62,665 bases of DNA from assembly GCA_016234735.1 (NCBI GenBank), contig JACRAN010000113.1, positions 1-62,665 of the forward strand. The letters run 5' to 3'. Of this stretch, positions 5,131-41,140 are shown piece by piece; the first letter of the stretch is position 1, and each line of letters starts with the position of its first letter. This DNA comes from Bacteroidota bacterium. GTDB taxonomy: Bacteria > Bacteroidota > Bacteroidia > Chitinophagales > Saprospiraceae. The notes under the pieces were generated by a model. The model was not told where the DNA came from. It saw only the letters and a list, made by a program, of their open reading frames with translations, and did not search any database. Made by a program: the position numbers and the translations under genes.

Positions 5131-7227
5131 TCAAGCGCCTTTCGCAGCCTGTCGCCCCAGTTCCCGCCACCCCTTCCACACCACCTCCAAATCCCGCCCC
5201 GGTTCGTAATCTTTGGCATAGAAAAAATCGAGCCGCCGGGCGGTGGCCTCGTCGAGTTGCCTGCCGGGGAAGGCATCGGCGGGGGAGAGGATGCCGGGGC
5301 GGACGGGGGGGATTTCGGATTTCGGATTTCGGATTTCGGATTGAGTGCTGGAATAGCCGACCCACGATTTTTTTCCGATAAAAACCAGCACCAGGTTTCT
5401 CAAAAATCCCCCCGGTTTTTTCACCAAAAACAACAGCGGAACGGCCAACAACAAAAAGCCAACAGCCAACAGCAAATCCAGCAGCCGCTTGCTGCGCCGG
5501 GCCATCGGGCTGGCGATTTTGTAGCGGACTGAGGTGGTGTAAAGTTCTCCCGAAGCGTCCTTCGAACTGCTGCCGATGATGGTCTGGCTGCCCTCCGGCA
5601 CCGTTTTGAACTCGATGCGGGGGCCGAGCCGCTCCATCCAATGCATTGTCTGTGAGGCAGTTGCGTCTTTCAGGCAGAAGATGATTTCGTCCAGGTGGTA
5701 CAGCGCAGCGATTTCGTCCAGTGGCTGGATTTCGGATTTCGGATTTCGGATTTCGGAGCCAGGCCCGTCCGAAATCCGAAATCCGAAATCCGAAATCGGG
5801 ATGGCTGTTCCGATAAAATTTCGCTCCACTCCCGCCTTCGCCAGCAACTGCTGCACCCGCTCACTTTCAAGTTGCGACCCAACGATGGCGAGGTTGGCCG
5901 GGCGGGTGCGGCCCACGCTGAGGTTGCCCGTTTTAAAAAAATGAAAAACCAGCCGCAGCGCCGCCAGCGCCAACAGCGCCCAGGCCGTGCCGAGCAGGAT
6001 GACCGCCCTCGACGGGCGCAGGTCAAGCGGCAGGAAACCGTACACCGCCGAGATGACGACCGTGCCGAGCAGCAGCCCACGGGTGAGGCGGCGCAGGTTG
6101 AAAGGCTCGTCGTAGCCGCCGCTGAAGAACAGCGCCGCCAGCCACAGCAGCGTGTAAAACGGCGCATTGAAATACAAAAAAGTAGGCTTGAACCACGCAG
6201 GGTCGTGGTAAAAATAGTTGGCCCAAAAGGTCTTCGACAGCCACAGTCCGCTGAATATCAGCACCGCATCAAGCACAGGGAGTTGGCTTTTTTTGAAAAA
6301 ATTGCCGAGCAGCGTCAAGCCTGCCCGCAGCCAGATGGCCCCGTAGATCATGGCGACGAAGAGCGACGCCTGTCGCCCGGTGAAGTGCTTCCGGGCAAAG
6401 ATGATCATGGCCTGGTAAAACGTGCGGACGTAGTTGAGGCTCCCCTTTTTCGTGCTTACGCCATTGTAGTGGATGATGGTGGTGTCGGAGAAGTAGTAGT
6501 TTTTGTAGCCAGCCTGCACGATGCGGTAGCTCAGGTCAATGTCCTCGCCGTACATGAAAAACGCCTCGTCGAGCAGGCCGATTTTGTCCAAAACGGAGCG
6601 GCGCAGCAGCATGAACGCCCCGGCCAGCACGTCCACCTCGTGGGTCTCGTTTTTGTCGAGGTAGCCGAGGTGGTAGCGCCCGAAGGTTTTCGATTTGGGG
6701 AAAATAGCCGCCAGTCCAAATGTCTTGCAGAACGCCACCCACGGCGAGGGGAACCCCCGTTTGCTTTCGGGCAAGAACTGTCCGCTGCCGTCCATCATCT
6801 TCACGCCCAGCCCGCCCGCCTCCGGGTGCGTTTCCATGAACTCGACGCACTTGGTCAGCGTGTCCTCCCGCACGATGGTGTCTGGGTTCAGCAGCAGGAC
6901 GTAGGGATTTCGGATTTCGGATTTCGGATTTCGGATTTCGGGTTTCGGGTTTCGGATTTCGGGTTTCGGGTTTCGGATTTCGGATGCTCGGATTGCCTGA
7001 TTGTTCGCTACCGCAAAGCCTGTGTTTTGTTGGTTGGCGATGAGTTTTACTTCGGGGAAATGGGTGCGCACCATCTGTACGCTGTCGTCGGAGGAGGCGT
7101 TGTCCACAACCCAGACGGCCTCCCCCCAGCCCCCTCCCAAGGAGGGGGAGTAGGCACGTCGGACGCTCAGGAGGCATTGCTCCAGAAAGTGTCGGACGTT
7201 GTAGTTGACGATGATGGTGGTGAGCAT
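5131..7227 (-). CDS. Family 2 glycosyltransferase fused to a sugar-transferase-like membrane domain
   Basis: This is a 698-residue membrane protein. Residues 1-about 285 are a GT2 catalytic domain like rhamnosyltransferases: MLTTIIVNYNVRHFLEQCL, VVDNASSDDSV, NTGFAVANNQ, the donor/metal loop LLLNPDT, and EDIDLSYRI with the general-base region. A hydrophobic middle follows (about 290-430), then a Rossmann-like stretch (NLAIVGSQLESERVQQLL), and then a segment resembling the entry of polyprenyl-phosphate sugar transferases (MARRSKRLLDLLLAVGFLLLAVPLLFLV). The usual catalytic part of the latter is short or degenerate. Three period-7 arrays interrupt the frame, at residues 81-108, 477-500 and about 629-640; the first falls exactly between the helix and the LLLNPDT strand of the GT2 fold. 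It starts 6 bp after ptuB, so it may share that transcript. A role in surface polysaccharide or glycolipid synthesis is inferred. Confidence 0.8.
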   Translation of the reverse strand: MLTTIIVNYNVRHFLEQCLLSVRRAYSPSLGGGWGEAVWVVDNASSDDSVQMVRTHFPEVKLIANQQNTGFAVANNQAIRASEIRNPKPEIRNPKPEIRNPKSEIRNPYVLLLNPDTIVREDTLTKCVEFMETHPEAGGLGVKMMDGSGQFLPESKRGFPSPWVAFCKTFGLAAIFPKSKTFGRYHLGYLDKNETHEVDVLAGAFMLLRRSVLDKIGLLDEAFFMYGEDIDLSYRIVQAGYKNYYFSDTTIIHYNGVSTKKGSLNYVRTFYQAMIIFARKHFTGRQASLFVAMIYGAIWLRAGLTLLGNFFKKSQLPVLDAVLIFSGLWLSKTFWANYFYHDPAWFKPTFLYFNAPFYTLLWLAALFFSGGYDEPFNLRRLTRGLLLGTVVISAVYGFLPLDLRPSRAVILLGTAWALLALAALRLVFHFFKTGNLSVGRTRPANLAIVGSQLESERVQQLLAKAGVERNFIGTAIPISDFGFRISDGPGSEIRNPKSEIQPLDEIAALYHLDEIIFCLKDATASQTMHWMERLGPRIEFKTVPEGSQTIIGSSSKDASGELYTTSVRYKIASPMARRSKRLLDLLLAVGFLLLAVPLLFLVKKPGGFLRNLVLVFIGKKSWVGYSSTQSEIRNPKSEIPPVRPGILSPADAFPGRQLDEATARRLDFFYAKDYEPGRDLEVVWKGWRELGRQAAKGA
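5311..5342. repeat. Period-7 array (GATTTCG)n, third array of the glycosyltransferase gene
   Basis: Four perfect GATTTCG units are followed by GATT. It encodes SEIRNPKSEI near residue 630 of the glycosyltransferase. Confidence 0.9.
5728..5797. repeat. Perfect 29-bp inverted pair of period-7 arrays
   Basis: 5728-5756 is (GATTTCG)x4 plus G, and 5769-5797 is its exact reverse complement, with a 12-nt spacer (AGCCAGGCCCGT). The pair lies inside the glycosyltransferase reading frame and would form a 29-bp stem in both DNA and mRNA. Confidence 0.95.
6906..6985. repeat. 80-bp period-7 array with GATTTCG and GGTTTCG units
   Basis: About 11 units are seen: GATTTCG, with four units changed to GGTTTCG. 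It encodes repeated NPKSEIR/NPKPEIR peptides between the NNQ helix and the LLLNPDT strand of the glycosyltransferase. Confidence 0.95.
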
Positions 7228-10786: not shown

Positions 10787-12088
10787 ATGGCTGAAATTAT
10801 CAAAATGCCCCGCATGAGCGATACGATGACCGAAGGCAACATCGTGGCATGGCACAAAAAAGAAGGCGACAAAGTGTCGCCGGGCGACCTGCTCGCCGAA
10901 ATCGAAACCGACAAGGCGACGATGGATTTCGAGAGCCTGTGGGAAGGTCACCTGCTGCACATCGCCGTGAAGGATGGCGTGGTGCCGGTGGAGGGACTGA
11001 TTGCCGTCATCGGCAAGCCGGGCGAGGACTGGCAGTCGCAGGTGGGCAATGGCATCCCGATAGCTATCGGGACAACATCCAACGGGCAGGCGAAGGTCGC
11101 CGAAGCAGCCCCCAAATCTGCCGCTGCATCACCGGCGATGGAAGTTGCAGCACATTCCGAGGCAGTGCCCGGCGCAGCGGTCCCGATAGCTATCGGGAGG
11201 GTGAAAGCATCGCCGTTGGCGAAAAGCATTGCGAAGGAAGCGGGCCTCGACATCGCTGCGGTGCAAGGCTCCGGCGATGGTGGACGCATCGTGCGGCGCG
11301 ACGTGGAGGCCGTGCTGGAAGCCAAAAGCACCGCCCCGGCGGCGGTTCCGGCTGCCAAACCTGCGGCGGTTCCGACCGTGCCGTCGTTCAGTTTTGCCGA
11401 AGGCGAGGCTTACGAAGAAAAACCGGTCAGCCAGATGCGCAAGGCCATCGCCCGCCGCCTGAGCGAGAGCAAATTCACGTCCCCGCACTTCTACCTCACG
11501 ATGGAAGTGAACATGGACAAGGCGGTAGAACTGCGCCCGAAACTCAACGAACTGGCCGCCCCGGTCAAGATTTCGTTCAACGACATCCTGATAAAAGCGG
11601 CAGCGGCAGCCCTGCGCAGGCACCCAGCCGTGAACTCTTCGTGGCTCGGCGACAAAATCCGCTACAACCAGCACATCAACATCGGGGTGGCGGTGGCGGT
11701 GGAGGACGGGCTGCTCGTGCCGGTCATCCGTCATGCCGACCTGAAATCGCTGTCGCAGATCAACACGGAGGTGAAGTTGATGGCGGAAAAAGCGCGCAGC
11801 AAAAAGCTGCAACCGGACGAAATGAGCGGCAACACGTTCACCATCTCCAACCTCGGCATGTACGGCATCGAAGAGTTCACGGGCATCATCAACCCGCCGG
11901 ACGCCTGCATCCTGGCGGTGGGGGCCATCCTCCAGAAGCCCATCGTGAAGGACGGCCAAATCGTGGTGGGCAACATGATGAAACTGACGCTCTCCTGCGA
12001 CCACCGGGTGGTGGACGGTGCCACCGGGTCGGAGTTCCTGCAAACGCTGAAAAACATGCTCGAAGAGCCGGCGCGGATGTTGGTTTGA
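10787..12088 (+). CDS. pdhC: Pyruvate dehydrogenase complex dihydrolipoamide acetyltransferase (E2)
   Basis: This is a 433-residue E2 subunit. Residues 1-80 are a lipoyl domain with the lipoylated lysine in EIETDKATMDFES (K43). Residues about 138-175 are the peripheral subunit-binding domain (KASPLAKSIAKEAGLDIAAVQGSG...). Residues about 205-433 are the catalytic domain, with SCDHRVVDGATGSEF carrying the active-site His near 404. The enzyme transfers acetyl groups from E1 to CoA in the pyruvate dehydrogenase core. Two 18-bp palindromes (TCCCGATAGCTATCGGGA) are built into the coding sequence, one just after the lipoyl domain and one just before the subunit-binding domain, each read as PIAIG. 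Both fall in flexible linkers. Confidence 0.93.
   Translation: MAEIIKMPRMSDTMTEGNIVAWHKKEGDKVSPGDLLAEIETDKATMDFESLWEGHLLHIAVKDGVVPVEGLIAVIGKPGEDWQSQVGNGIPIAIGTTSNGQAKVAEAAPKSAAASPAMEVAAHSEAVPGAAVPIAIGRVKASPLAKSIAKEAGLDIAAVQGSGDGGRIVRRDVEAVLEAKSTAPAAVPAAKPAAVPTVPSFSFAEGEAYEEKPVSQMRKAIARRLSESKFTSPHFYLTMEVNMDKAVELRPKLNELAAPVKISFNDILIKAAAAALRRHPAVNSSWLGDKIRYNQHINIGVAVAVEDGLLVPVIRHADLKSLSQINTEVKLMAEKARSKKLQPDEMSGNTFTISNLGMYGIEEFTGIINPPDACILAVGAILQKPIVKDGQIVVGNMMKLTLSCDHRVVDGATGSEFLQTLKNMLEEPARMLV
11055..11072. repeat. HIP-like palindrome, copy 1
   Basis: Perfect 18-bp palindrome TCCCGATAGCTATCGGGA in the first linker of pdhC (about residues 90-96). The same 16-bp core recurs at 11182 and 41081. 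Confidence 0.95.
11181..11198. repeat. HIP-like palindrome, copy 2
   Basis: Identical 18-bp palindrome, 126 bp from copy 1, in the second linker of pdhC (about residues 132-138), in the same reading frame relative to the palindrome. Confidence 0.95.
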
Positions 12089-18810: not shown

Positions 18811-19170
18811 ATGCAAAACTACCTCTTCGTTTTTCTCGGCGGCGGCCTCGGCAGCATCTGCCGGTTCGGCATCGGGCACTGGCTGACGGCCTACCGGCTG
18901 TCGTTCCCCTGGGCCACTTTTCTGGCCAACGTGCTGGCCTGCCTCGTGCTGGGGGCGCTCGTCAGCCTGAGCATGAAGGGCCGGCTCGGCGGCCCGGCCA
19001 GTGTTTTCCTGATGGCCGGTTTTTGCGGCGGGTTCAGCACATTTTCCACCTTCACCAACGAGACTTTCCAGATGCTCCTCGCCGGGCAGTGGTGGAAGGC
19101 CACCGCCTACATGGTAGCCAGCCTGCTCGTTTGCATCGGGTCGCTCTACGTCGGGATGAAAGCGGTTTGA
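18811..19170 (+). CDS. crcB: Fluoride ion channel CrcB/FluC
   Basis: This is a 119-residue membrane protein with four hydrophobic segments, the usual Fluc length. Signature elements are GGGLGSICRFGIGHW at the N-terminus, TFLANVLACLVLGAL with the conserved Asn, and GFCGGFSTFSTFTNET with the Phe/Thr/Ser pore residues. It forms a dual-topology dimer that exports fluoride. Its stop codon is the first base triplet of a period-7 hairpin. Confidence 0.93.
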   Translation: MQNYLFVFLGGGLGSICRFGIGHWLTAYRLSFPWATFLANVLACLVLGALVSLSMKGRLGGPASVFLMAGFCGGFSTFSTFTNETFQMLLAGQWWKATAYMVASLLVCIGSLYVGMKAV

Positions 19171-19244
19171 TTTACGATTTACGAGTGACGATTTACGATT
19201 GGGGAGTCTGCGGAATCGTAAATCGTCATTCGTAAATCGTAAAT
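19170..19244. repeat. ATTTACG period-7 inverted pair between crcB and the M4 protease
   Basis: 19170-19200 and 19214-19244 are reverse complements over 31 nt with one mismatch, separated by 13 nt. The arms touch the stop codons of the two convergent genes. The arm sequence is nearly identical to the arm at 36554-36584. Confidence 0.95.
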
Positions 19245-30335: not shown

Positions 30336-30417
30336 GCGAGCGAGCGGGTGAGAAATTGAGAGGTGAGAAAGTGAGATTGAATTTCAGCGTTTTAAATTCA
30401 AATCACTTTCTCAAAAC
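30332..30417. repeat. GTGAGAA-type hairpin, copy without palindrome
   Basis: The left arm 30365-30384 (GAGAAAGTGAGATTGAATTT) and right arm 30394-30412 are inverted repeats. The core from 30365 to 30412 is nearly identical to 41066-41132, except that it lacks the 19-bp palindrome-containing insert found there. Confidence 0.9.
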
Positions 30418-35305: not shown

Positions 35306-36550
35306 ATGAAAAAAACCGCAGTCTGCATCGTTGGGGCTGGCCCCGGCGGGGCCGCCACGGCCCTGAAACTCCATCACCTCGGCATCCCCTGCGTGTTGGT
35401 GGACAAGGCGGTGTTCCCCCGCGACAAAGTCTGCGGGGATGCCATCAGCGGCAAGGTGGCGCTGGTGCTGCGCCGCATCGACCCGGCCATCATGGAGCGG
35501 TTCGAGGCGGCTGACACCGAGCAGACGAGCGTGTGGGGCATCCGGTTCGTGGCCCCCAACAAAAAAGAAATCGAGGTGCCGTTCCGCATCGGCTACGACC
35601 CCAACATCGACCCCAAGCAGGGTTATGTTTCAAAAAGAACGGACTTCGACCTGCGCCTCGTGGAGGAGGTGAAACGTTGCGACAGCATTGATTTTCACGA
35701 AGGTATTTCCATTGAAAAATATGAAAAAACGCCCGATGGCTACCGGGTTTCCAATGCCGACGGCAGTTTCCAGGTGGAGGCCCCGCTGCTCGTGGTGGCC
35801 AATGGTGCGAACTCGGCCTTCTCCCGCCACCACGCCGGGCTGGAAAAAGACGAAAAACACCATGCCGGGGCGGTACGGGCCTACTACCGCAACGTGACCG
35901 GGATGCACCCCGACGGCTTCATCGAACTGCATTTTTTGAAGGAAATCAACCCCGGCTACCTGTGGATTTTCCCGCTGCCGGGCGGCCATGCCAACGTGGG
36001 GCTGGGTATGCGGAGCGATTTCATCAGCAAGCGGCGCTACAACCTGACCAAAGGTTTGCAGGGGCTTCTCGAATCGCACGCCGACTTGCGGGAGCGGTTT
36101 AAAAATGCGGAGCAAATGGGCAAATTCACCGGCTACGGCCTGCCGCTCGGCTCGAAAAAACGGCATATTTCCGGCGACCACTTCATGCTGGTGGGAGATG
36201 CCGGGCACCTCATCGACCCCCTGAGCGGGGAGGGCATCGGCAATGCGGTTTACAGCGGGTTCATCGCTGCCGAGCAGGCGCAGAAGTGTCTGGAAACCAA
36301 CGATTTCTCCCCAAAAACGATGGAAGCCTACGACGTGCGGGTAGCCAGGGTGCTGCGCAAGGAAATGGAAATGAGCTACCGCCTCCAGCAGATGATGGCC
36401 CGCCCGTGGCTTGTCAACCTGATGGCCAACTGGGTGTCACGCGACCGGAGACTTATCTACCTGATAGCGCAAATGTACTCCGATATGGATGTGAGGAAAA
36501 AAGCTTTCAACCCGTTGTTTTGGGTCAAATTACTGATGGGAAAGGTTTGA
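35306..36550 (+). CDS. FAD-dependent oxidoreductase of the geranylgeranyl reductase family
   Basis: This is a 414-residue flavoprotein. The FAD-binding GxGxxG is AVCIVGAGPGGAATALKL at the N-terminus. The characteristic DKVCGDAISGKV follows near residue 44, and the C-terminal FAD motif is LVGDAGHLIDPLSGEGIGNAV (about 290-310). Family members saturate prenyl chains of lipids or quinones, or hydroxylate small molecules; the substrate is not evident. A hydrophobic C-terminal segment suggests peripheral membrane attachment. Convergent with the DksA-like gene across a period-7 hairpin. Confidence 0.88.
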   Translation: MKKTAVCIVGAGPGGAATALKLHHLGIPCVLVDKAVFPRDKVCGDAISGKVALVLRRIDPAIMERFEAADTEQTSVWGIRFVAPNKKEIEVPFRIGYDPNIDPKQGYVSKRTDFDLRLVEEVKRCDSIDFHEGISIEKYEKTPDGYRVSNADGSFQVEAPLLVVANGANSAFSRHHAGLEKDEKHHAGAVRAYYRNVTGMHPDGFIELHFLKEINPGYLWIFPLPGGHANVGLGMRSDFISKRRYNLTKGLQGLLESHADLRERFKNAEQMGKFTGYGLPLGSKKRHISGDHFMLVGDAGHLIDPLSGEGIGNAVYSGFIAAEQAQKCLETNDFSPKTMEAYDVRVARVLRKEMEMSYRLQQMMARPWLVNLMANWVSRDRRLIYLIAQMYSDMDVRKKAFNPLFWVKLLMGKV

Positions 36551-36553
36551 CGG

Positions 36554-36661
36554 ATTTACGATTTACGAATGACGATTTACGATTGGTTGGTTCGGAAAAA
36601 ATTGGTTGTAAATTCTTTGAGAATTCCAGCACTCGTAAATCGTCATTCGTAAATCGTAAAT
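36554..36661. repeat. ATTTACG period-7 inverted pair, second copy
   Basis: 36554-36584 and 36633-36661 are perfect reverse complements over 29 nt with a 48-nt spacer. The arm is the same as at 19170-19200 apart from one base, whereas the spacer is unrelated. Confidence 0.95.
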
Positions 36662-38588: not shown

Positions 38589-38655
38589 CCGGTTTGAGTT
38601 TGATAAAAAAAATGTGATTGCTGGTTGGTTGCAACCAATTGATTTTCAAAATATT

Positions 38656-38722
38656 AACTGCCAACTGCCAACTGCCAACTGCCAACTGCCAACTGCCAAC
38701 TGCCAACCGCCAACCGCCAACC
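38656..38722. repeat. AACTGCC period-7 array next to the hexosaminidase stop
   Basis: Seven perfect AACTGCC units, two AACCGCC units and AACC follow one another, ending directly before the stop codon of the hexosaminidase gene. The unit is free of stop codons in all six frames. Confidence 0.95.
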
Positions 38723-38723
38723 C

Positions 38724-41039
38724 TCACTCCACCACAATCTCGTCCACGAACAACCACGCCTCGTTCCCCGCCCCCTGTGCCCCTTCGGGAATGAGGCCGT
38801 AGCGGGCCGCAAAAACTTTCAGGTAGCGGGTCTTGACCTGTGTGAGTGGAAACTGCACCTCCACAAGCTTGCTTTCGCCCGCAGCGATGGAGGCCATTTT
38901 TCCCAACGATTGGAACTGGCTGCCATCGGATGACGTAGCTACTTCCAACTCCTTCGGCGGGTACACCCACTGGCCGGGACCATTGAAAAAACGCATGGTC
39001 AGCGTGTTCAAATCCGTCTCGGCGCCGAGGTCGATGATGGCGATGAAATCCTTGCCCTCGAAGCCCAGCCACTCGGAGCCGCCGTAGCGTTCCGTCGGGC
39101 CGGCCACGCCGTTGATGACGCTGCCTGGCCCCGCCCCGCTGTATTTTTCCGCCGGAAAATTGGTCAGGCTGATGGTTTTCCCGGCGGCTTTGTGCAGCTT
39201 GAACGGAGCCTCGGCACCCCGCCCCACAGGTTTCCCGTTTTGAAAAGGGACGGCTTTCAGCGTCCCGCTTTTTTCCATTAAAATCGACTTTTCGTACAGG
39301 GCGCTGGCAGTCGTCGGTTCGCTGCCGTCGGTCGTGTAACGGATTTCGATGCCCTCCATTTTCGGCGAGAGGCCAACCAGGATTCCCTTGCCGTCGCCCG
39401 CCGAAATCGTCGCTTTCACGTCGTACAGATTCGTGGCGACGTTCACGGCTAGCGCCTGCAAGCGCTTGAGGTGGTGCGCCAGGCGGCCTGTGAAGTTGTC
39501 GTAATTTCTCGCCTCCTTCGCCGACCAGGCGACCTCCGCCAGCGCACAGGCACGGGGGTAGGCCATGTACTCCACCTTGGCAAAATCGGCCATGTACTCC
39601 GTCCAGACGTTGGCCTGCACGCCGAGGATGTGACCAGCTTCCTCCGGCGTCAGTTCGGCAGGGGTCGGTTCGTAGCCGTACACTTTGTCGAGGGGCAGGT
39701 AGCCGCCGATGGCCAGCGGTTCGGCGGGGTCTTGCGACTGGTAGTAATCGAGGTAGCAAAAATCGGTGGGTGTCATAATCACGTCGTGGCGCTGTTTTGC
39801 TGCCGCAATGCCGCCCTCCGTGCCCCGCCAACTCATCACGGTAGCGTTGGGGGCGAGGCCGCCTTCCAGAATTTCGTCCCAGCCGATGATGCTGCGGCCC
39901 TTCGAGTTCAGGAATTTTTCCATCCGCTGGATGAAATAACTCTGCAAGCCGTGCTCGTCCTTGAGGCTGTTTTTTTTGATTAAACCCTGGCAAAAACCGC
40001 TGTTTTCCCACGCCGTTTTCGGGCACTCGTCGCCGCCGATGTGGATGTATTTGGATGGGAAAATGTCCATCACCTCCGTCATCACGTCTTCCAGAAATTT
40101 AAAAGTTACCTCGTTCGGGCAAAAAACATTGTCGTAAATGCCCCATTTGGTGCCTACCTCGGCGGGCTGGCCGGTGCAGCCCAGTTCGGGGTAAGCGGCG
40201 ATGGCGGCCAATCCGTGCCCCGGCATTTCGATTTCCGGGATGACGGTGACGAAGCGCTCGGCGGCGTAGCGCACGATTTCACGGGCCTCCTCCTGCGTGT
40301 AGTAGCCGCAGTATTTTTTGCCGTCGTACTTCTGCGGGGTGTCGTTGTAGTGGCCGATCAGCGTTTCGTTGCGGCAGGCAGCGACGGTTTGCAGCTTCGG
40401 GTATTTTTTGATTTCGAGCCGCCAGCCCTGGTCTTCCGTCAGGTGCCAGTGGAAGCGGTTGAACTTGTGCAGTGCCAGCAGGTCGATGTATTTTTTCACG
40501 TCATCCACCCCGAAAAAATGCCTGCCCACGTCGAGGTGCATCCCCCGGTAGCCGTACCTGGGCGCATCGGTGATTTCGACGCAAGGAATTGACAATGAGG
40601 CGGTTTTGCCTGCTTCCGCTTCCACGGGCATCAATTGGCGGAGCGTCTGAATGGCGTAAAAAGCGCCTGCCCCGGTCTTGGATTTCACCGTCACTTCGTA
40701 GGGTGTGACGCTCAGTGTGTAGCCCTCGTCGTTGGCGATGGACGGGTCGAGGCTGAACAGGATGGCGTCTTTTTGCGCCGAGCCTTCCACCGGGGCAACG
40801 GTCGTCCCGGTCGCTTTTATCAGCAGCGAGGCGAGGTGGGCGGCAGCGGTTTTCAACCCCTCGTCGGCGGAGGCGAGCAGGATTTTCGTGTCGCCGGTGA
40901 TTTTGAACTGCCCGGTTTTCGCCGTCAGGCTCACAGGCTGTGGGATGATGTTGTACTGGTTGGCGCTGGCTTGTTTTTTATCTTGCTGGCAGGCAGCAAT
41001 GACCAGGGCGAAGAGGAGGAGTAAAATTGGTTGTTTCAT
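38724..41039 (-). CDS. GH20 beta-N-acetylhexosaminidase, lipoprotein
   Basis: This is a 771-residue enzyme with a lipoprotein signal (MKQPILLLLFALVIAACQQ; lipobox IAAC). An N-terminal GH20b domain (about 30-150) leads into the catalytic TIM barrel (GYRGMHLDVGRHFFGVDDVKKYIDLLALHKFNRFHWHLTEDQGWRLE). The catalytic Asp-Glu pair is in HIGGDECPKTAW near residue 335. The C-terminus has a chitobiase-like domain (IEIRYTTDGSEPT) and a discoidin-like domain (FIAIIDLGAETDLNTLTMRFFNG). It should release terminal GlcNAc or GalNAc from chitin oligomers, peptidoglycan or glycoproteins at the cell surface. Confidence 0.93.
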   Translation of the reverse strand: MKQPILLLLFALVIAACQQDKKQASANQYNIIPQPVSLTAKTGQFKITGDTKILLASADEGLKTAAAHLASLLIKATGTTVAPVEGSAQKDAILFSLDPSIANDEGYTLSVTPYEVTVKSKTGAGAFYAIQTLRQLMPVEAEAGKTASLSIPCVEITDAPRYGYRGMHLDVGRHFFGVDDVKKYIDLLALHKFNRFHWHLTEDQGWRLEIKKYPKLQTVAACRNETLIGHYNDTPQKYDGKKYCGYYTQEEAREIVRYAAERFVTVIPEIEMPGHGLAAIAAYPELGCTGQPAEVGTKWGIYDNVFCPNEVTFKFLEDVMTEVMDIFPSKYIHIGGDECPKTAWENSGFCQGLIKKNSLKDEHGLQSYFIQRMEKFLNSKGRSIIGWDEILEGGLAPNATVMSWRGTEGGIAAAKQRHDVIMTPTDFCYLDYYQSQDPAEPLAIGGYLPLDKVYGYEPTPAELTPEEAGHILGVQANVWTEYMADFAKVEYMAYPRACALAEVAWSAKEARNYDNFTGRLAHHLKRLQALAVNVATNLYDVKATISAGDGKGILVGLSPKMEGIEIRYTTDGSEPTTASALYEKSILMEKSGTLKAVPFQNGKPVGRGAEAPFKLHKAAGKTISLTNFPAEKYSGAGPGSVINGVAGPTERYGGSEWLGFEGKDFIAIIDLGAETDLNTLTMRFFNGPGQWVYPPKELEVATSSDGSQFQSLGKMASIAAGESKLVEVQFPLTQVKTRYLKVFAARYGLIPEGAQGAGNEAWLFVDEIVVE

Positions 41040-41040
41040 T

Positions 41041-41140
41041 TTATAGATGTGAGAAGTGAGAGGATGAGAAAGTGAGATTGCCCGATAGCTATCGGGATGA
41101 ATTTCAGTATTTTAAATTCAAATCACTTTCTCAAAGCAAC
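41041..41140. repeat. GTGAGAA-type hairpin, copy carrying the palindrome
   Basis: The same element as at 30332-30417: left arm from 41066, right arm AAATTCAAATCACTTTCTC at 41114-41132. Positions 41081-41099 are extra and contain CCCGATAGCTATCGGG (41081-41096), flanked by a TG dinucleotide on both sides. Confidence 0.93.

Follow-up and report, generated by a model that had tools for sequence, protein, structure and literature searches.

A perfect palindrome dispersed in Bacteroidia genomes, probably the core of an 18-bp non-autonomous mobile unit

Palindrome copies and the hairpin pair in the window

The window, that is, the whole analysed stretch of 62,665 nucleotides, contains three exact copies of the perfect palindrome CCCGATAGCTATCGGG (11056-11071, 11182-11197 and 41081-41096), where shuffled sequences are expected to contain none. 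The features relevant to this work are the following:

10787..12088, + strand: gene for a 2-oxoacid dehydrogenase E2 component (pdhC-type), host of both in-frame palindromes
11056..11071: in-frame palindrome in the E2 gene, read as IPIAIG, in the linker from the lipoyl to the E3-binding domain
11182..11197: second in-frame palindrome in the E2 gene, read as VPIAIG, just before the E3-binding domain
30365..30412, + strand: palindrome-free hairpin of the dispersed GTGAGA...CACTTTCTC family, just downstream of a gene for an SprB-repeat / Por-secretion-tail protein
35732..35747: CCCGATGGCTACCGGG, with two mismatches to the palindrome, inside an ORF of 414 aa
41066..41132, + strand: palindrome-containing member of this hairpin family, located upstream of a gene for a GH20 beta-hexosaminidase (- strand)
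41080..41097: 18-bp palindrome unit with its core CCCGATAGCTATCGGG at 41081-41096 and an outer pair G/A

The two copies in pdhC, already pointed out in the earlier note, are exact and in frame; the PIAIG peptide is absent from the E2 linker positions in 12 of 12 congeners, and from this comparison of sequences both copies look like true additions. The match at 35732..35747 may be a decayed copy or a chance match.

By direct reading, the hairpin at 41066-41132 is GAGAAAGTGAGATTG[CCCGATAGCTATCGGGATG]AATTTCAGTATTTTAAATTCAAATCACTTTCTC and that at 30365-30412 is GAGAAAGTGAGATTGAATTTCAGCGTTTTAAATTCAAATCACTTTCTC, both folding far better than shuffled sequences (z -6.4 and -4.6). The former holds 19 extra bases at 41081-41099, including the palindrome, and otherwise the two hairpins differ at two loop bases only, in agreement with the earlier note, which took the pair as direct evidence of insertion and the TG on both sides as a possible target duplication. 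Neither interpretation held once the rest of the family was considered. A search of the genome with the 30365 hairpin as query gave 36 matches; in 13 of the 29 alignable copies the palindrome occupies the same position, in exact, slightly changed or strongly decayed form (the last in three copies, L202, L219 and L223), and the palindrome-free copies display assorted loop deletions, with loops of many lengths, so that the pair constitutes weak evidence for insertion. Furthermore, the TG is unique to the 41066 copy, the other exact filled copies carrying AT to the left of CCC; therefore, it is not a target duplication, and the 41066 hairpin corresponds to a member of the filled subfamily with a local change, the 30365 hairpin being possibly a deletion product. 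The palindrome at 41066 was probably inherited along with its host hairpin, as in many members of the family, and the sequences of the pair would be accounted for by loss as well as by gain. We thus somewhat favour, for this pair only, a palindrome ancestral to the hairpin family that the 30365 copy lost by deletion (slippage across the palindrome), as suggested by the single position shared by intact and decayed copies and by the widely varying loop lengths of palindrome-free copies, several of which also lack the TTTCAG segment; against it, some palindrome-free copies with longer loops (L200, L204, L209 and L218) could represent true empty states.

Copy number, anatomy and distribution of the unit

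A search of the whole 4.88-Mb draft genome, as suggested in the earlier note, recovered 37 exact copies of the palindrome and none of a reversed control pattern, also a palindrome and of the same composition; with a free centre and one mismatch allowed, 55 places were found. Flank statistics were obtained from 182 non-redundant palindrome sites. The positions immediately outside the 16-mer (-1/+1) are complementary in 170 of them (122.9 expected, z 12.7), the pairs being TA in 142, CG in 23, AT in 4 and GC in 1, and complementarity at -2/+2 falls below expectation (32 against 54.4, z -3.8), with no signal further out at these sites. The identity of the outer pair depends on the genome, most having T-A and one C-G: T/A in 31 of the 37 copies of the genome studied here, C/G in 18 of the 22 copies of another (G019). 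As the two outer bases change jointly between lineages, the unit is of 18 bp and its pairing matters; the unit at 41080..41097, with its non-complementary G/A, departs from most copies in this respect. Folded as single-stranded DNA, the unit forms a stem of 7 bp capped by a tip of 4 nt.

A scan of GTDB species genomes yielded at least 118 stretches with the palindrome. Among the matches listed, the record titles name Bacteroidota groups in every case but one ('uncultured bacterium'), no cyanobacterial record is present, and isolates of Flavobacterium, Algoriphagus, Mucilaginibacter, Pedobacter, Aequorivita and Neolewinella are included. Of 198 genomes sampled from the phylum, 19 are positive, all of them from the class of the window, which to judge by the record titles is Bacteroidia, and none from the other classes of the phylum. 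Draft genomes and metagenome assemblies make up most of the material. The presence of the palindrome in genomes of isolates (Flavobacterium, Mucilaginibacter, Algoriphagus) rules out an assembly artefact. The uniformity of the palindrome is overstated, since an exact-match search enriches intact copies. The number of copies ranges from 0 to 33 among 13 congeneric genomes (0 to 37 counting the genome of the window), and these patchy within-genus counts are compatible with repeated gain and loss.

Filled and empty sites

The earlier note had proposed that the palindrome moves, or is added, as a unit, and the addition itself is borne out by duplicated tRNA genes, a dispersed element, tandem repeats, an RNase P RNA gene and protein genes, the part that fails being the use of the window pair as its proof. 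In Algoriphagus, a dispersed element occurs both empty, as CCGAGCG-GAG-TCGAGG (L324, L328, L329), and filled, as CCGAGCG-TCCCGATAGCTATCGGGA-TCGAGG (L099, L320, L322), with 18 bases in place of 3. In the genome of the window, an intact tRNA-Asn gene adjoins a copy with two palindromes, one in the D-loop, where AGA is replaced, and one in the variable loop, where GGTCC is replaced. Three tandem tRNA-Met copies of another genome (G003, L053 1180-1620) are intact, palindrome-bearing and bearing a palindrome within a palindrome, respectively, the single unit substituting for GAGCGC(G). A palindrome-bearing tRNA-Arg likewise adjoins an intact copy in a Bacteroidales genome. In G033, tRNA-Gly with a palindrome was found twice; an intact tRNA-Gly was looked for in this genome and not found, so this case comes without an empty site from the same genome.

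Tandem-repeat arrays with a period of 6-12 are interrupted by the unit at 16 of the 182 sites, compared with 0.1 upon swapping of flanks, and in 7 of these 16, belonging to arrays of periods 6, 7 and 8, exactly 3 nt are skipped. In heptamer arrays alone, a 3-nt loss is indistinguishable from a 4-nt duplication; arrays with periods of 8 and 6 speak for base loss, as do the tRNAs and the Algoriphagus element, and target duplications of 2 bp or 4 bp were consequently rejected. In addition, no direct repeat at a fixed offset was found around the palindrome at the 182 sites. The 17-bp insert with a 2-bp duplication envisaged in the earlier note thus gives way to an 18-bp unit with a covarying outer pair that replaces about 3 target bases, these being 3 in the cleanest cases and up to 7 in others; insertion boundaries are uncertain by 1-2 nt, since the outer bases may partly belong to the target. 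Among the genome pairs compared within a species, none showed a recent event: the two A. aquimarinus genomes are only 83-90% alike, with unalignable intergenic regions, and F. pectinovorum was similar. The window also contains perfect or near-perfect heptamer hairpins (GATTTCG, GATTTAC) at 5728-5797, 19170-19244 and 36554-36661, with loops of 10, 13 and 44 nt, and further heptamer arrays at 1231, 6906, 21480 and 38642-38728 (AACTGCC); at other places in the genome, the same heptamers carry the palindrome.

Protein genes and a structured RNA also carry the unit. A histidine kinase with an in-frame palindrome has four extra residues relative to 4u7n; in a MurF-alanine racemase fusion, the alignment to solved MurF stops at the site; and in an RNase HII (L083 6966-7730), a stretch of about 28 residues is missing from solved enzymes. 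This last stretch includes the palindrome and a second hairpin-like sequence (CCCCCTCACCCCCTTCAAAGGGGG). Further in-frame hosts include HPPD, a penicillin-binding protein, DnaG primase and a polyketide synthase linker, among others. In a Cyclobacteriaceae genome (L107 4440-4846), an otherwise normal rnpB (246 bits) has a helix near its 3' end extended by the palindrome, the gene being intact and functional-looking. The exchange of 18 bases for 3 adds 15 bases, and the reading frame is therefore kept, which may help to explain the abundance of in-frame copies; selection against frameshifts would contribute as well.

Taking these sites together, the alignments display one and the same unit in unrelated flanks, replacing few target bases, with a covarying outer pair and nesting in other copies. 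We consider it probable that a non-autonomous mobile unit of 18 bp, perfectly self-complementary (NCCCGATAGCTATCGGGN) and with CCCGATAGCTATCGGG as its core, has inserted repeatedly in Bacteroidia genomes. The acting form would be a folded single-stranded hairpin, DNA or RNA, with a 7-8 bp stem and an AGCT tip, which an enzyme of the host or of a phage would supply in trans. The putative enzyme would find its targets in hairpin loops, slipped tandem repeats or breaks, and insertion would be accompanied by the trimming of a few target bases. Around the sites there is a modest excess of 5-bp closing stems (20 against 7.3), and flanking direct repeats are also enriched; the folding of the flanks shows no excess over random positions and is marginal against swapped flanks (p 0.06). 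A general preference for hairpin loops was thus discarded, and the impression that the palindrome always lies in hairpins is not general, as only short closing stems are enriched. A stronger version, that the class-wide fixed-sequence 18-nt hairpin itself transposes, being spliced in by a conserved Bacteroidia enzyme with a loss of about 3 bases and a net gain of 15 that keeps frames, is put forward tentatively, as less likely than not; such an enzyme would possibly act via an RNA or single-stranded DNA hairpin.

Alternative explanations and relation to known repeats

The candidate mover named in the earlier note was a RAYT-like transposase, and mobilisation of the palindrome as a REP-like hairpin by a Y1 (IS200-like HUH) transposase would suit its small size, the two Y1_Tnp matches in the genome, and the fact that REPs too enter genes in frame and palindromes (PMC3733652). 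The evidence gathered here makes it improbable. The RAYT-type Y1 gene of the genome (C218, L054 421-1080) is intact and flanked by REP-like hairpins of its own (GCAACGGGTTTTATACCCGTTGC), and the flanking hairpin (GCAACGGGT..ACCCGTTGC) differs from the palindrome. None of the 31 Y1 transposase loci from this genome and its relatives carries an exact palindrome, and only one of them (L055) has even a copy with two mismatches, about 1.5 kb away. Nor does the palindrome copy number follow the number of Y1 genes (Spearman 0.09, p 0.48): 33 palindromes coexist with no detected Y1 gene in G002, and 8 Y1 genes with no palindrome in G010. Because of the different hairpins, the 31 loci and the unlinked copy numbers, a Y1 transposase is not the mover on current evidence. 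An autonomous element bounded by two palindromes was also rejected, as no common transposase was recognized by eye among the ORFs between neighbouring copies. Two loci deserve mention as observations: an in-frame palindrome lies beside an MPNHLHVLI motif, Y1/HUH transposase-like, at L146 7608-8000, for which neither Pfam nor a PDB search with the Y1-like fragment gave a match, and at L127 the palindrome is inside a Y2_Tnp gene.

Passive spread, in which the palindrome travels only within longer repeats (heptamer arrays, hairpin families) via recombination, gene conversion or microhomology template switching, draws on the many sites located within tandem repeats and on two genera in which families of longer elements have both filled and empty members, and part of the copies is indeed explained by spread with longer repeats. 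As an account of the whole phenomenon it seems unlikely, given that the copies in tRNA-Asn, -Met, -Arg and -Gly, in rnpB and in unrelated protein genes have no common flank past 18 bp. Far less credible is a selected functional site (terminator tip, protein-binding or methylation site) arising independently by mutation: although one sequence prevails across the class and some copies sit at the tip of hairpins resembling terminators (L158, L185), several congeners have zero copies, in-frame copies occur in unrelated genes and others in degenerate tRNAs, and 16 identical bases produced by mutation are not credible at such copy numbers. Deletion sizes at the insertion sites of the proposed mobile unit vary.

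The palindrome sequence had no match in the literature searched, and its best reading is that of a very small mobile hairpin, non-autonomous and resembling the SDRs of cyanobacteria and REP-like repeats. The SDRs of Nostoc punctiforme, the subject of work by Elhai et al. in 2008, are reportedly dispersed hairpin-forming repeats of 21-27 nt; they are said to lie often within tandem heptamers or minitransposons, to be nested and to have covarying paired bases, and we know of no autonomous partner for them. Likewise, the unit described here is a tiny dispersed hairpin (18-20 nt) whose contexts are unrelated and comprise, among others, heptamer arrays and elements resembling minitransposons, and its covarying outer pair (complementary in 170 of 182 sites, T-A or C-G by genome) supports the hairpin. 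It differs in occurring in another phylum, with a sequence unrelated as far as known; moreover, it is of 18 bp, fully self-complementary, with one sequence class-wide, and replaces about 3 bases, whereas SDR5 is described as having inserted precisely, between two nucleotides of HIP1 (PMC4390886).

REPs of the GTAG and CGTC super-families are short palindromes, some of them internal to genes in frame or inside other palindromes, and those of the CGTC type lack a transposase and have been reported in Bacteroidetes (PMC3733652). Our palindrome shares these traits, being short, in frame within genes, sometimes inside palindromes and, like the CGTC type, transposase-less. The CGTC super-family carries an unpaired CGTC tag (or TGTC/CCTC) and a CCA tail, with a stem of 8-9 bp whose first and second pairs are A-T and a loop of 4-5 nt (PMC3733652). 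The 4-nt loop of the palindrome agrees with this description; in contrast, among the 182 sites, CGT precedes CCC in 29, CGT/TGT/CCT in 60 and a CCA tail is found in 5, and the stem is of 7-8 bp with a first pair T-A or C-G and an anti-complementary second position. The palindrome thus lacks a conserved unpaired CGTC/GTAG tag, the CCA tail, the outer AT/AT pairs and the RAYT association; in GTAG-type REPs, the cognate RAYT is flanked by the same palindrome, as opposed to 0 of 31 Y1 loci here for exact copies.

Rickettsia palindromic elements (RPE) of about 150 bp enter unrelated protein genes without loss of frame (PMC10969869), and so does the palindrome (pdhC, histidine kinase, MurF, RNase HII, HPPD, penicillin-binding protein, DnaG); however, with 18 bp it is about 8 times shorter than RPE of 100-150 bp, is unrelated in sequence, and is also present in tRNA copies and rnpB. 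With MITEs it shares a non-autonomous, dispersed, inverted-repeat nature, yet it has no internal region or target duplication, no related transposon was found, and its filled and empty pairs lose target bases.

If unit insertion is true, an 18-bp palindrome would be close in size to the lower limit for mobile DNA, and the class-wide fixed sequence would offer a direct handle on the enzyme, i.e., a hairpin-binding protein conserved in Bacteroidia; if the 18-nt hairpin itself transposes class-wide, it would count among the smallest mobile DNAs. The palindrome would further represent a route for bringing short peptides (PIAIG, PDSYR) in frame into essential proteins and for adding hairpins to structured RNAs, as well as a marker of genome change across a large bacterial class. 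The mobility question, posed by the SDRs of cyanobacteria and by REPs without a transposase, can be put to the test in Flavobacterium and Algoriphagus, which are cultivable.

Two additional observations concern the surroundings of the palindrome in other genomes. In a Flavobacterium genome (G258, L338), several intergenic repeats composed of gccact, the palindrome and ataaaggattaaaaggatt constitute a third host hairpin family. Sister palindromes recur at the collected loci, namely CCCGAAAGCTTTCGGG in three contexts and TCCCGAAGCTTCGGGA in two, and are perhaps members of a wider TCCCGA..TCGGGA family.
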